From: Candidatus Rifleibacteriota bacterium
GTDB lineage: Bacteria > Riflebacteria > Ozemobacteria > Ozemobacterales > Ozemobacteraceae
NCBI GenBank assembly: GCA_017526725.1
Contig: JAFXRA010000227.1
Span: 1 to 5,462, forward strand
Length of the DNA stretch: 5,462 nucleotides
Direction: 5' to 3'
In this document: piece by piece, positions 1-5,462 of the stretch
How the letters are laid out: every line of letters starts with the position of its first letter
How positions within the stretch are numbered: position 1 is the first letter of the stretch
Notes under the pieces: model-generated
What the model was told of the DNA's origin: nothing
The model's input: the letters and a program-made list of their open reading frames with translations, nothing else
The model's database searches: none
Position numbers and translations under genes: made by a program

Positions 1-27
1 CTGTTCTATGCTTATTTGCTGCTTCAT
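1..27 (-). CDS. 5' end of an unidentified gene, cut by the window edge
   Basis: An ATG at 27-25 overlaps the TGA stop of the preceding gene (ATGA, the stop being 26-24) and opens a frame reading MKQQISIEQ to the edge of the window. No strong Shine-Dalgarno sequence is visible, because the upstream bases are the A-rich Lys codons of the previous gene, so translation would depend on coupling. The same ATGA arrangement links kdsA to that previous gene, which supports a real continuing operon. Nine residues are too few to identify the product. By gene-order analogy with kdsA clusters elsewhere (kdsD, kdsC, lptC, lptA, lptB), a Kdo or LPS-transport gene is a reasonable guess, but this is inference only. 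Confidence 0.5.
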
Positions 28-869
28 TTTTTCTTATTCTTTTTGGCAGATTTTATAAGTTCTTTGTCAAGCTCTTTTAAAGCATTTAAACCGGAATTCA
101 ATTCGCTTAAATGACCTTCTGAAGCTTTAATAAAAGGGGGAAAACCATAAAGCAAATTGCCGGGCGCTTCCCCAAACCATTTTGAAACAGTATATTGAAT
201 TGTTCTGAAACGTTCTAGCAATAAAGTAGCATTAGAACACCAACGAGATTTGTCAGAGTGTTTTCTCTTCCAATTAATATAATTAGGATTTTTTATTCTT
301 GCCAATAAAGCCACATTCTGAGTATGAATATTTTTAACTGCCGGGCTGAAAAGCTTAGTACTAAGCACAAGATTATAAATCTGCTTATTGTTCTCAATGA
401 CGTTAGTCATGACCCCTATAATGCTAGCCGCTTCATCTAAGCCAGGATCCGGAGGTTCTACTTCGTCCGGGGCGTCAACCACATCAACAGAAGACTTGTT
501 TGAGTCAGTCGTTATTACTGGCCTAAAACCATCAGATTTATCAGAAATGGTATTAGACTTTTCTTCATTCTTGTTAGAAAATTTTACTCTATCTACAACT
601 TCTGTATTTATTTTTGGAGTATCAGTATCTTTGAAGGAAGGAATAAAGTTTCTTACTGCCTTAGAGCGAAATCTCGGCGGAATTCTTTCTAAGCTGTCTA
701 CTACGACTAACTGTCCGTGTTCATCATGATAGGAATAGAGTTCTAGACCGCCTGCAGATACTAAAATAGGGAGAAAAACAAATATACTGCCTAAAGCAAA
801 ATACTTTTTACCGGATTGCCACACAGTTCGTGCTCGCAATGACAGATTACTTAAATTTTTCATAATCAT
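24..869 (-). CDS. membrane-anchored or secreted envelope protein with DUF4124-like N-terminal segment, function unknown
   Basis: I do not recognise this 281-residue protein as a named family. It has a basic N-terminal region (residues 1-22), then one hydrophobic segment (about 24-40) ending VSAGG, which could be a signal peptide or a single membrane anchor. Residues 43-71 (Y45, D49, G52, V56, D58, then PPRFR) resemble the short beta-hairpin motif of DUF4124-type periplasmic proteins. Residues about 80-147 are rich in Ser, Asp, Glu and Pro and look disordered. Residues about 148-275 look helical, and the chain ends in a strongly basic tail (KSAKKNKKK). The start ATG (869-867) overlaps the kdsA stop as ATGA; AAGGAG (879-874) lies 4 nt upstream. 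A second ATG at 863-861, 10 nt from the same site, is an alternative start. Position in a kdsA operon suggests an envelope role, but no function can be assigned. Confidence 0.8.
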   Translation of the reverse strand: MIMKNLSNLSLRARTVWQSGKKYFALGSIFVFLPILVSAGGLELYSYHDEHGQLVVVDSLERIPPRFRSKAVRNFIPSFKDTDTPKINTEVVDRVKFSNKNEEKSNTISDKSDGFRPVITTDSNKSSVDVVDAPDEVEPPDPGLDEAASIIGVMTNVIENNKQIYNLVLSTKLFSPAVKNIHTQNVALLARIKNPNYINWKRKHSDKSRWCSNATLLLERFRTIQYTVSKWFGEAPGNLLYGFPPFIKASEGHLSELNSGLNALKELDKELIKSAKKNKKK

Positions 870-1690
870 TCGGCTCCTTGCTTGACGACTTGTTTTATGG
901 CAATTAGCTGCTTAATCAAACCTCTTAATTGATTGAGAGGCAAAATATTATCGGCATCAGAAGGTGATTTTTCTGGTTCAGGGTGAACTTCAAGGAAAAG
1001 GCCATCGACATCACCAGTAGCCATTGCAGCCCTTGCCAAAGTTCCTATATATTCTCGCTGACCGCCGGTTTTTGAACCACCAGAGCTAGGAAGCTGCAGA
1101 GAATGGGTTGCGTCATAAATAACCCCATCGCAATATTCCTTCATTATTGGGAAAGAACGCATATCGACCACCAGATTACCATAGCCGAAAGAAGCACCTC
1201 GTTCTGTTAAAAATACTTCTCCAGAGCCTTCTACTGCTCTAACCTTATCGGCCAAGTGCTTTGTTGCCCAAGGAGACAAGAACTGCCCCTTCTTAATGTT
1301 AACGATTTTGCCGGTTTTAGCAGCTGCTTCTGTCAAATCAGTTTGACGGCAAAGGAAAGCAGGAATCTGAAGAATATCACAAACTTCAGCTACCAACGGA
1401 GCCTGATAAGCTTCATGAATATCTGTAAGAACCGGTAAACCTGTCTTACTCTTTACAGAAGCTAAAATTTCCAAGCCCTTTTCTAGACCAGGACCTCTGT
1501 AAGAATCGCCTGATGTGCGGTTTGCCTTATCATAACTGGCCTTGAATACCACAGGAATATTCAGTTCATTTCCTATATTTTTTATTGTCTCAGCTATTTC
1601 TAAGCAAAGACTCTCTGTTTGAATGACGCAAGGACCGGCAATAAGAAAGAAAGGAGCTCCAACAGAGACTTTTTTTAAAGAAAATGACAT
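866..1690 (-). CDS. kdsA: 3-deoxy-D-manno-octulosonate 8-phosphate synthase (KdsA), metal-dependent type
   Basis: KdsA condenses phosphoenolpyruvate with arabinose 5-phosphate to Kdo 8-phosphate in the cytoplasm, the committed step towards the Kdo of LPS inner core. The 274-residue length is normal for this TIM-barrel family. Visible signatures are IAGPC (17-21), DKANR (54-58), SYRGPGLEKG (63-72), CRQTDL (114-119), KKGQFL, ERGASFGYGNLVVDMRS, DATH (193-196) and LEVHPEPEKS. KANR, rather than the KPRTS of DAHP synthases, marks it as KdsA. Cys21, His196, Glu234 and Asp245 match the four metal ligands of the Aquifex enzyme; the metal-independent E. coli type has Asn instead of the Cys. ATG at 1690 is preferred to the adjacent TTG at 1693 because GGAGG (1702-1698) lies 7 nt before the ATG. 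It is first in its operon and its stop overlaps the next start (ATGA). Confidence 0.97.
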   Translation of the reverse strand: MSFSLKKVSVGAPFFLIAGPCVIQTESLCLEIAETIKNIGNELNIPVVFKASYDKANRTSGDSYRGPGLEKGLEILASVKSKTGLPVLTDIHEAYQAPLVAEVCDILQIPAFLCRQTDLTEAAAKTGKIVNIKKGQFLSPWATKHLADKVRAVEGSGEVFLTERGASFGYGNLVVDMRSFPIMKEYCDGVIYDATHSLQLPSSGGSKTGGQREYIGTLARAAMATGDVDGLFLEVHPEPEKSPSDADNILPLNQLRGLIKQLIAIKQVVKQGAE

Positions 1691-1697
1691 CAATATT

Positions 1698-1781: not shown

Positions 1782-1854
<73 letters not shown>

Positions 1855-1942: not shown

Positions 1943-1988
1943 TAGGCTACAAAAAAATGAACCCAAATAACATCTATAAGGTAAATTA

Positions 1989-2894
1989 ATGAATAAGAAA
2001 ATAACATATATACTTCTAGTTTTCATGCTTGTATTTAGCACTAATTCTTACGCAGAAGAATTATGGGAACTAACTCAGCCCGGAAATGCAAATATTGGGC
2101 AAAGTGTTTTCGTAAACCAAGAAAGGCTCGGTCTCTATATTCCAAAATCATTTGAAGGAAGAAGAGTTAACGAAGACAGAACAAATTTCGGTTTCGAAAT
2201 AAAGAATACTTTCAGATTCAAACATTCAGACAGTGAAGTTAACCTGAAAGGTATGGTCAACAAAATGAATTTTGAATATAAAACCGACATTATTGATGTG
2301 CAAATTTTTCGTTCTAAAAATATGAAACCGGGTGCCTCTGCCTGTATGGATTGCCACGGATCTTCTATTCCGCGAACCTTAGCTACTATTGGTTACGGAC
2401 AGACAAAAATAGATGCATATAGATATGTCGGCAACGACATAAACAAATCAGAATCAAGATTTTTCAGGGCAAACGTAGACCATTGGGTACAAAGAAACCT
2501 TATGCTGAAAGGCGAAGTCAGACTTGGGAAAGTCGAACAAGGAGCCTTATCTCTTGATGCAAAGAGCATTTCTTTAGGGATTGGCGGAACAGCTTTTCAT
2601 CGCTTAACCTGGTCTGGCGATTGGATACTTTCAAAAGTAGATAATTTTAAAGCTAGAAATTCTCTTATAGGTAAAGTTACCTACAAAATAATCGGCGGTT
2701 TAAAGTTTAAGTTTGAAGCTGGTGCATTCCTCGATGGTTATACTCAATTTGGTACAACCTTGTCTGAAATGGGTATGGCAACAGCTGAGCCAGTAAATAG
2801 ATATGCCGACTGGCTGCCAAACTTTTTCAAGAGACTCAAAAACGATGCATTTGGTTACTATAACGCCTGCGTAGAATACGAACACAGATTCTAA
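1989..2894 (+). CDS. exported monohaem-motif protein, probable outer-membrane beta-barrel, unrecognised family
   Basis: I do not recognise the family. The 301-residue product starts with a signal peptide (MNKK, hydrophobic core 7-17, likely cleavage after SYA at 22). A single c-type haem motif CMDCH occupies residues 119-123 (codons 2343-2357), followed by Gly. Around it are amphipathic segments with alternating residues, for example 66-79, 83-97, 101-108, 156-168, 169-184, 188-199, 204-216, 223-236, 237-250 and 286-301. The chain ends in an aromatic-rich strand with terminal Phe (VEYEHRF), the usual signal of outer-membrane barrels. A third Cys (294) lies in the last strand. If haem is attached, Met112, His164 or His204 could be distal ligands. 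A covalently bound haem in a barrel suggests electron transfer at the outer membrane; this is inference, and the motif might instead bind a metal. The gene is monocistronic, with SD TAAGGT 7 nt before ATG, its own promoter and a terminator. Confidence 0.85.
   Translation: MNKKITYILLVFMLVFSTNSYAEELWELTQPGNANIGQSVFVNQERLGLYIPKSFEGRRVNEDRTNFGFEIKNTFRFKHSDSEVNLKGMVNKMNFEYKTDIIDVQIFRSKNMKPGASACMDCHGSSIPRTLATIGYGQTKIDAYRYVGNDINKSESRFFRANVDHWVQRNLMLKGEVRLGKVEQGALSLDAKSISLGIGGTAFHRLTWSGDWILSKVDNFKARNSLIGKVTYKIIGGLKFKFEAGAFLDGYTQFGTTLSEMGMATAEPVNRYADWLPNFFKRLKNDAFGYYNACVEYEHRF
2343..2357 (+). other. codons of the CxxCH haem c attachment motif
   Basis: TGT ATG GAT TGC CAC encodes CMDCH at residues 119-123 of the exported protein, after the Met112-Lys-Pro-Gly stretch and before GSSIPRT. 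In exported proteins this motif normally receives haem through thioether bonds in the periplasm. It is the only CxxCH in the protein. Confidence 0.7.
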
Positions 2895-2926: not shown

Positions 2927-2968
2927 AATAGTCTCTATATTAAAAATAAATATAGAGACTATTTTTTT
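2927..2968 (+). terminator. strong rho-independent terminator, possibly shared with galE
   Basis: A perfect 15-bp stem (2927-2941 with 2949-2963) closes a 7-nt loop and is followed by seven Ts (2962-2968) on the plus strand, 32 nt after the stop of the barrel gene. Genes on both sides converge on it. On the minus strand the hairpin follows galE by 27 nt, but its tail is the weaker ACTTTT, so it may also end galE transcription less efficiently. Confidence 0.9.
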
Positions 2969-2990: not shown

Positions 2991-4004
2991 TTATTCGTAG
3001 CCGTTGGGGTTCTTAGACTGCCAGTTCCAAGAGTCTTTGCACATTTCTTCAATGCCGTTTTCTGCTTTCCAGCCCAATTCTTTATTTGCTTTTGAAGGAT
3101 CGCAATAGCATTCTGCAATATCTCCTGCTCTTCTTCCTGTAATTTTATATTTAATTTTAATTCCGCTGGCTTTTTCAAAAGCTTTAACAACGTCTAAAAC
3201 ACTGTAACCTGTGCCAGTACCGAGATTCCAGATTCCGATACCAGGGTTTTCCTTAAGCTTTTCAATTGCCTTAACATGACCTTTTGCCAAGTCAACAACG
3301 TGAATGTAGTCTCTAACACCTGTTCCATCATGAGTTGGATAATCATTGCCGAAAACGCTTAATTCTTCACGCTTGCCAATAGCTACCTGAGTAATGAAAG
3401 GCATTAGATTATTAGGAATACCATTCGGATCTTCCCCTATAAGGCCGCTTTTATGAGCACCAACAGGGTTAAAATAGCGTAGCAAAGCTATATTCTGCTG
3501 AGGATTAGCCTTTTGCCAATCTTTTAGAATCAGCTCAATAACGTATTTGGAAGTACCATAAGGATTGGTTGTACCACCGGTCGGGAAAGTTTCTTTTATC
3601 GGAACTTCAGCAGGGTCACCGTAAACAGTTGATGAAGAACTGAAAACAAGATTCTTAACATTGCTTTCAATCATGGCTTCACAAAGACTAATAGTACCGG
3701 CAATATTATTCTTATAATAGAACAAAGGCTTTGCAACAGATTCTCCAACTGCTTTCAAACCAGCGAAATGTATAACTGCTTCTATTTTTTCATCTGTCAA
3801 AATTTTGCTTAACAGCTTAGTATCAAGGATATCGCCCTGATAAAATTTAGGACGTTTCCCTGAAATTTGTTCAATTCTATCAAGAACAGCCATTTTACTG
3901 TTATAAAGATTATCGACAATAACTACGTCATGACCAGCCTGAAAGAGTTCAACAGCAGTATGGCTGCCGATATAGCCGGTTCCGCCAGTAAGAAGAATAC
4001 GCAT
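2991..4004 (-). CDS. galE: UDP-glucose 4-epimerase (GalE), possibly also acting on UDP-GlcNAc/GalNAc
   Basis: GalE interconverts UDP-glucose and UDP-galactose with bound NAD+ in the cytoplasm. At 337 residues it is full length for this extended-SDR family. The NAD-binding glycine motif TGGTGYIGS covers 6-14, with Asp31 after the second strand. Ser124 and the YxxxK pair Tyr149/Lys153 are the catalytic residues and fall at the same numbers as in the E. coli enzyme. [20 protein letters not shown] and a C-terminal [12 protein letters not shown] are family signatures. Position 299, Tyr in E. coli, is Cys here (GDIAECYC), as in human GALE (Cys307), which also accepts N-acetylated sugars. ATG at 4004 has AGGGG 8 nt upstream. 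The gene has its own promoter and lies 119 bp downstream of a glycosyltransferase on the same strand, fitting supply of UDP-galactose or UDP-GalNAc for surface glycans. Confidence 0.97.
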
Positions 4005-4123: not shown

Positions 4124-5462
4124 TCACTTTTTTCTTTTTAAATCAAACAATAAGCAGCCTAGGAACATAATTGATGGCAAATAAACAGCAAATATTCTCA
4201 GAAATGATGTTCTTAAATGCCAGGATAAATCATGAGGAGTAATCAAATAAATAAAAACATATATCATGTACATTACTAGAATTAGTTTGAATAAGTAATA
4301 ATACTTATAATATCTTTTATCTACAAAACCCAATAATAAATATATTGGAATAAAAAGCATCCAAAAATGCTGTTTTGTAAAATTTATAACATAAGGCATT
4401 ATCATTACATATCTTTCAGGTAAAAATAATTGTATTATTCTTTCGCCCCAACCCAATACCATATCATTTTCGCTATTCGCAAAATATCTTACAAATAAGA
4501 AAGAAATAATAACAGGCAATAAAGCAACAACTGTTTTTAAAAACTTTTTTATTGAAGAAACAAAATTATTATCTTTCTTATAAAGACAATAAATAATTAC
4601 TAAGCTAAAACCTATAAACCATGGAATTCCTTCGTTTTTTACCCAAAAACATAAACCAGCAAAAAGCATACAGAGCCATGGCAAATCTTTGTTTTCCCTT
4701 TCCCAAAGAATAAACTCATATATTGAAATAAGAATAAATAAAGCCAAAGGAATATCAGCATACTGCATACTCCCATAAAAGATATATTGCGGCGAATATG
4801 AAAGAAGACATACAGCTAAGACAGAATAATACTTATTTTTTAATTTTATAAGATATAAATAGACTAAGATAAAAGAAATAAAAGTAAAAAACCAAGAGAA
4901 AAATAAAGGTATAATCGTATCAGTTCCGCCAGTATAATTAAAGCATCTAGCGATTATACAAGGCAGGAAAAGCGGATAATCACGATGGGAGTAATCAAAT
5001 GTGTCTAAGTACATCAGACTCCATTCTTCGTTGCCCAAAGACAAAAACCTTGCCCTGAAATTCCACATTGCTAGAGCATCCCATGATCCATCGGGATATA
5101 TTAAACATCTAACCGCACATAATACAGCAATCAAGCCCAAAAGTATTGTTATCAGATAATTTATTAGCGACCTCTTCTTTTGGCACGAAGAAGTATTTTC
5201 AGAAGATCTGATTATAGATAAATTAGTTGTTTTATTTCGATTTTTAAGCCATAAACGCAAATAAATAACAGCAACAAAACATACCTCAACAATATGGTAA
5301 TTTGAGTTGTATCCATTTACTGCTATTGTGTATAGCCAAAAAGAAATGCTTGTAAGACCTAATCCTAAAAAAAAGCTATGAAACTTTGATATTATACTGT
5401 TCTTTTCCTTTGATTTATAAAAAAATAAATATATTATTCTGCCAAAGAAATAAGCAGTTAAA
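4124..5462 (-). CDS. GT-C-type integral membrane glycosyltransferase (ArnT/PMT-like), N-terminus beyond the window
   Basis: A polytopic protein of the GT-C fold, which transfers sugars from polyprenyl-phosphate donors on the periplasmic face of the inner membrane. The first large loop carries WDALAMW (5083-5063) with the Asp expected of the catalytic site, then HRDYPLFLP. Later come QYADIPLALF, FWVKNEG and, near the C-terminus, HDLSWHLRTSFLR, a pattern typical of PMT/ArnT relatives. About ten hydrophobic segments follow one another, and the chain ends in basic LKRKK. The frame is open to the right edge: the in-frame TTG at 5260-5258 has no Shine-Dalgarno site, and the 67 codons before it encode membrane-like sequence (AYFFGRIIYLFFY, FFLGLGL, FWLYTIAV). 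The gene is therefore 5'-truncated by the window, with at least 445 residues. Composition is visibly more AT-rich than galE downstream, common in surface-polysaccharide genes. Acceptor and donor cannot be told. Confidence 0.85.
   Translation of the reverse strand, partial: LTAYFFGRIIYLFFYKSKEKNSIISKFHSFFLGLGLTSISFWLYTIAVNGYNSNYHIVEVCFVAVIYLRLWLKNRNKTTNLSIIRSSENTSSCQKKRSLINYLITILLGLIAVLCAVRCLIYPDGSWDALAMWNFRARFLSLGNEEWSLMYLDTFDYSHRDYPLFLPCIIARCFNYTGGTDTIIPLFFSWFFTFISFILVYLYLIKLKNKYYSVLAVCLLSYSPQYIFYGSMQYADIPLALFILISIYEFILWERENKDLPWLCMLFAGLCFWVKNEGIPWFIGFSLVIIYCLYKKDNNFVSSIKKFLKTVVALLPVIISFLFVRYFANSENDMVLGWGERIIQLFLPERYVMIMPYVINFTKQHFWMLFIPIYLLLGFVDKRYYKYYYLFKLILVMYMIYVFIYLITPHDLSWHLRTSFLRIFAVYLPSIMFLGCLLFDLKRKK

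Follow-up and report, generated by a model that had tools for sequence, protein, structure and literature searches.

A conserved c-type haem motif inside a predicted 12-stranded outer-membrane barrel from Riflebacteria

The stretch of DNA analyzed here (the window, 5,462 nucleotides, contig JAFXRA010000227.1 of a Candidatus Rifleibacteriota bacterium) carries an open reading frame (ORF) for a protein that combines a signal peptide, a single c-type haem motif and the sequence marks of an outer-membrane beta-barrel, referred to below as the haem-barrel protein. By eye, the N-terminus (MNKKITYILLVFMLVFSTNSYA-EE) looks like a signal peptide cleaved after residue 22. This signal, the CMDCH motif (residues 119-123) and the C-terminal Phe, all named in the original prediction, are seen in the 301-residue ORF. 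The features of the gene and its product, all on the forward strand, are as follows.

1978..1981, forward strand: Shine-Dalgarno-like AAGG, 7 bases 5' of the ATG, read directly from the sequence
1989..2894, forward strand: haem-barrel ORF, 301 amino acids plus stop, ATG start
1989..2054, forward strand: signal peptide, residues 1-22, cleavage site by eye; the model has a helix at residues 3-18
2103..2312, forward strand: barrel strands 1-4, residues 39-108, in the AlphaFold2 model
2313..2375, forward strand: strand 4-5 connection with the haem motif, residues 109-129, in the model, and at the same place in a distant homologue
2343..2357, forward strand: CMDCH c-type haem motif, residues 119-123
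2376..2888, forward strand: predicted barrel strands 5-12, residues 130-300
2481..2486, forward strand: His165-Trp166, towards the end of strand 6, placed on the periplasmic side by parity only
2733..2849, forward strand: long conserved loop with helices, linking strands 11 and 12 of the model, residues 249-287, mean column entropy 1.33
2889..2891, forward strand: C-terminal Phe of the outer-membrane assembly signal (EYEHRF)
2927..2963, forward strand: terminator-like hairpin of 15 pairs plus a T run, separating the haem-barrel ORF from the convergent galE

A match to the haem-barrel protein was found in 20 out of 39 genomes of the phylum group of genome G001, and the window protein was aligned with a single copy per matching genome (alignment A2). 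The residues C119, C122 and H123 are invariant in all 21 rows, the most distant copy being 24% identical. Two protein database searches returned 48 homologues, 47 of which cover the haem site (P0041 does not), and 46 of these 47 contain CxxCH. Conservation of the three motif residues, proposed as a check in the original prediction, was thus found in both sets. A CxxCH arises in 0.031% of 200,000 shuffles of the mature chain, and the CMDCH motif in the haem-barrel protein is real, beyond chance. Such a motif in an exported protein is the mark of a c-type cytochrome, and both are seen here, with the signal peptide judged by eye; from the sequence, H123 would serve as the proximal haem ligand. 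The homologue that departs from the motif (P0023) has CLDCQ in its place. On the tree it is a single tip and the sister of P0022, which keeps the His, so that the His was apparently lost once, and late.

A 12-stranded barrel is predicted in two models, one of the window protein (AlphaFold2) and one of a homologue 25% identical to it, which lies at the top of the 8-12 strands guessed originally. Both models have a fold close to KdgM and place the CxxCH between strands 4 and 5, and strand parity suggests that this connection faces the periplasm. The signal peptide (by eye), the even number of strands and the C-terminal aromatic residue expected of outer-membrane barrels are all present. The C-terminal Phe is found in 46 of the 48 database homologues, the remaining two being probably chimeric; among the C-termini in A2, L044 and L045 have Leu, and L051 has a different end following its run of N. 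Barrel closure was judged via matches to solved closed barrels, not from coordinates. The best fold matches are channels or transporters (KdgM, NanC, COG4313, and FapF), with LpxR and OMPLA also among the matches, and Foldseek template-modelling scores do not exceed 0.63 among the best 50 of 818 rows. Cyc2 and Mtr structures are absent among the fold matches listed, which counts neither way. Searches of Pfam and NCBIfam (E up to 1) and of PDB sequences (E up to 10) gave no match to the haem-barrel protein. The loop at residues 249-287, with model helices at 259-264, 266-271 and 278-285, is a possible lid or plug that would close the outer side of the barrel. Taken by itself, a monohaem, periplasm-facing architecture on a 12-stranded barrel is likely.

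The homologues include sequences named Candidatus Riflebacteria (P0007), Rifleibacteriota (P0035) and Ozemobacteraceae (P0045). The source of P0033 (L001/G001) is titled Candidatus Methylomirabilis, a label that may be wrong; on the tree P0033 groups with the Rifleibacteriota sequence P0035. P0026 and P0041 are probably chimeric assemblies, in which the haem-barrel N-terminus is fused to the C-terminal domain of a DNA gyrase in one case and to a ParcG domain in the other. Genome G025 has a main copy plus short matches at the ends of contigs C24 and C28, perhaps a second copy split by assembly. A second CxxCH is located within the N-terminal 20 residues of P0040. P0023 carries extra cysteines, with four Cys within 15 residues (CLSSSYCLDCQKDEC), and its cluster comprises 7 sequences from 2 contigs; its sequence would fit a loss of haem, perhaps with a metal site or disulfides as replacement.

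Haem maturation genes, whose presence the original prediction had proposed to check, were found in the genomes of relatives. PF01578 (CcsA) matches all 20 genomes that carry the haem-barrel gene, the matches in G009 (E 2.3e-16) and G013 (E 1.4e-10) being weak ones that may represent a HemX-type paralogue. ResB matches 18 of the 20, is missing in G009 and G020, and is partial in some (e.g., G006). Among the genomes nearest to the window (G020, 90%; G019, 88%; G022, 77-79%; G021, 71%), four out of four match PF01578 and three out of four match ResB.

The remaining genes of the window are all on the reverse strand:

24-869, reverse strand: ORF of 281 amino acids, family not recognised, with a hydrophobic N-terminal stretch; adjoins kdsA
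866-1693, reverse strand: kdsA
1782-1854, reverse strand: tRNA-Pro
2991-4004, reverse strand: galE
4124-5461, reverse strand: mannosyltransferase-like protein, running open at the window end

The haem-barrel ORF in the window is a stand-alone gene. The two scan matches at 2927-2963 are one hairpin on two strands (1.0 expected in shuffles), and a promoter scan remained at chance level (4 found vs 4.6 expected). The gene order kdsA, haem-barrel ORF, galE is also present in the two closest genomes, G019 and G020, the latter with its galE cut by the contig end. Against these two copies the haem-barrel gene has a ratio of nonsynonymous to synonymous substitution rates (dN/dS) of 0.04 and 0.07 (NG86), values that are rough at a dS of 0.9-1.3. 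The protein encoded at 24-869 is 79-84% identical over 246-264 residues to its counterparts in the same two genomes.

In 5 of the 20 loci (G012, G013, G014, G015, and G028) a haem-biosynthesis cluster lies ≤3 kb from the haem-barrel gene. The cluster genes are cysG-N, hemA, hemC, cobA-hemD and an AhbC/NirJ-type radical S-adenosylmethionine (radical-SAM) gene. The cluster, seen at L043, L044, L045, L050 and L054, suggests haem synthesis by the siroheme route. In scans of three of the five radical-SAM copies, TIGR04546 and TIGR04054 were the best NCBIfam models, below their curated cut-offs. The haem-barrel gene follows the radical-SAM gene by 58 bases in the sisters G014 and G015, is co-stranded with other ORFs intervening in G013 and G028, and is convergent in G012; cysG-N and a HemX-like gene are found ~7 kb away in G016 and G017. 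The lineages with haem-gene linkage span the tree, and the linkage therefore looks ancestral. A DUF3417/phosphorylase-like gene (one copy scanned) is linked to the haem-barrel gene in 7 of the 20 loci. Several contigs are short (3.6 kb in G006, 7.9 kb in G009, 9.4 kb in G020), so that the absence of neighbours there is uninformative.

The original prediction found no partner cytochrome beside the gene, which holds within the window, but relatives carry multihaem ORFs with 8-11 CxxCH on the same contig, ~9-24 kb from the gene (G012, G016, G017, and G021). The ORF in G021 (L068:5195-6319, 13.5 kb away) encodes an exported-looking octahaem cytochrome of 375 amino acids with 8 CxxCH; it matches Multi-haem_cyto and, among PDB entries, 4qo5 (E 3e-30) as well as hydroxylamine oxidoreductases. 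Copies 74-81% identical to it are present in G019, G020 and G022, and all four closest genomes (G019-G022) thus have one. Octahaem homologues were identified in 13 of the 20 haem-barrel genomes, or in 14 if G012, with its weak and partial match (E 3.2e-6), is included; the octahaem gene occurs without the haem-barrel gene in 8 genomes, and the haem-barrel gene without the octahaem gene in 7. In G016 and G017, ten-CxxCH ORFs (L055:14879-16609 and L056:2592-4874) are found ~9 and ~10 kb away, near cysG-N and the HemX-like gene, and G012 has an ORF stretch with eleven CxxCH ~24 kb away. Two other candidate partners were rejected. Matches to the NrfA family (PF02335) in the haem-barrel genomes are short (profile positions ~232-293), with two over the cut-off (G023 and G025), and those in G021 and several other genomes fall inside the octahaem matches; CBB3 cytochrome (PF13442) matches only G012 among the 20 genomes, below the cut-off. 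PF11854 (MtrB/PioB) was not found in any of the 20.

With moderate confidence, the haem-barrel protein can be explained as a one-chain monohaem cytochrome-porin that would relay electrons and hold its haem covalently at the periplasmic mouth of the barrel, in the turn of 21 residues that links strands 4 and 5. Sequence and computation show a conserved motif, predict the barrel and the position of the motif in it, and find maturation genes in relatives. Given the architecture, a relay function is somewhat favoured, as the principle of Cyc2 in another architecture. The protein would be exported by Sec, CcsBA (System II) would attach haem to C119 and C122 with H123 as the proximal ligand, and the C-terminal Phe signal would lead to Bam-dependent insertion. 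The haem would then plug or cap the lumen and swap electrons with periplasmic multihaem cytochromes, such as the octahaem type of the closest relatives, and also with a small solute or an acceptor entering the barrel. These are steps that we infer, the electron-relay role above all. A bolder version, which we would advance only tentatively and with considerable doubt, is a new class of one-chain monohaem cytochrome-porin, ancestral to the Riflebacteria and their kin. Its haem would be threaded into a turn of a 12-stranded barrel instead of forming an added domain, and the protein would be a minimal outer-membrane electron port that receives electrons from an octahaem cytochrome of the periplasm in bacteria without MtrB/PioB-type porins. 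The original interpretation as a small haem-bearing outer-membrane conduit or sensor is partly supported, with the conservation of the motif and, in the models, the barrel being borne out.

Several observations weigh against the best explanation. One haem alone cannot span the membrane, and residues 120-123 of the motif have predicted local distance difference test (pLDDT) values <50 in the haem-free model. In the alignment of 34 rows used to count the columns of ligand residues no distal Met or His is invariant, a point that the original prediction had proposed to check. His165, the candidate sixth haem ligand, predicted at the same barrel mouth as the motif, is His in 31/34 rows and Tyr in 3/34, beside a Trp166 kept in 34/34; Met261 is kept in 28/34 and His204 in 30/34. 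(K216 is invariant in 34/34 yet lies by parity at the outer end of strand 9, and was rejected as a ligand.) Lumen-facing sites are not more conserved than lipid-facing sites (entropy 1.62 vs 1.66, p 0.64), in an alternation that is crude, being fixed per strand and breaking at bulges, and weak either way, and the outward face is mildly hydrophobic, with a mean hydropathy of -0.13 to 0.93 in 11 of the 12 strands and 2.83 in strand 11. P0023 has kept the barrel sequence and lost the motif His. Across the 39 genomes the co-occurrence with the haem-barrel gene is not significant for ResB (p 0.41) or the octahaem gene (Fisher p 0.20), and that of PF01578 (Fisher p 0.047) says little because 35 of the 39 genomes match PF01578. 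Finally, the haem-gene synteny (5/20) is no stronger than that of the DUF3417/phosphorylase-like gene (7/20).

As no Met or His is invariant on the distal side, the haem may be six-coordinate or five-coordinate, and five-coordinate c haems exist. The variable distal side favours a haem-bearing outer-membrane sensor or enzyme, unlikely overall, in which a five-coordinate or weakly capped haem would bind or reduce NO, O2, peroxide or nitrite at the barrel mouth with no long-range conduction. The solved outer-membrane enzymes LpxR and OMPLA among the fold matches point the same way, as do the predicted outer loops 51-58 and 249-287, which are strongly conserved (entropy 0.57 and 1.33) unlike ordinary surface loops; but the fold matches reveal no function, and no recurring signalling or enzymatic partner was seen among the neighbours examined, many of them without annotation. 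A channel or uptake barrel with a structural or gating haem, e.g., for the passage of tetrapyrroles or oligosaccharides, is more doubtful still. It would suit the best fold matches, the haem-synthesis genes that adjoin in 5/20 loci, and P0023 as a barrel sequence without CxxCH, whereas the haem motif is otherwise almost invariant, beyond the need of a dispensable gate. Least probable is a CxxCH without haem, i.e., a disulfide, a redox-active thiol pair or a metal site in a structural outer-membrane protein: an Asp nearly fixed at the third motif position (31/34), which haem attachment is not known to need, the four nearby cysteines that P0023 has instead, and the still putative status of the covalent haem speak for it, but His follows the second Cys in 46/47, no other Cys is among the conserved columns, and maturation genes are present in relatives.

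If haem is present in this one-chain cytochrome-porin, a c-type cofactor can be built into a turn of an outer-membrane barrel, and haem attachment would occur before or during barrel folding. A haem there would further suggest surface redox chemistry, perhaps compact electron handling at the cell surface, in the poorly known phylum Riflebacteria. One survey, as far as it is drawn on here, places Riflebacteria and UBP17 first among phyla in unknown gene families per genome and gives 26 putative phylum-marking families for Riflebacteria (PMC10849945). In the literature on Riflebacteria and on monohaem or Cyc2-like barrels, the titles and abstract openings among the matches listed contain no description of the haem-barrel protein.

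Among known systems, KdgM and NanC share the predicted 12-stranded fold, but KdgM is 13% identical to the haem-barrel protein, which matches no Pfam family up to E 1, and to our knowledge these channels contain no haem. The FapF and COG4313 channels are 7-8% identical to it, and we know of no CxxCH in either. MtrAB and PioAB likewise bring haem and porin together at the outer membrane; in the account drawn on here, a separate decahaem protein sits within a 26-strand porin (PMC8406198). An identity with MtrB/PioB was rejected, as the haem-barrel protein has no PF11854 match. The likeness to Cyc2 is one CXXCH and one outer-membrane barrel in a single exported chain, and the same account (PMC8406198) expects the Cyc2 haem at the periplasmic mouth. 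In Cyc2 the cytochrome domain is N-terminal and the barrel has 16 strands, whereas the haem-barrel protein has its site inside the barrel, between strands 4 and 5, and 12 predicted strands; the AXPXFAR[Q/K][T/Y] motif ahead of the Cyc2 haem site occurs in 0/48 haem-barrel homologues, as does the shorter P.FAR. An identity with Cyc2 was rejected on these three grounds, and the original claim that the internal site is unlike Cyc2 or MtrAB/PioAB stands. If the proposed cytochrome-porin is true, it would add a third architecture of outer-membrane haem proteins to the Cyc2 fusion and the porin plus multihaem insert.
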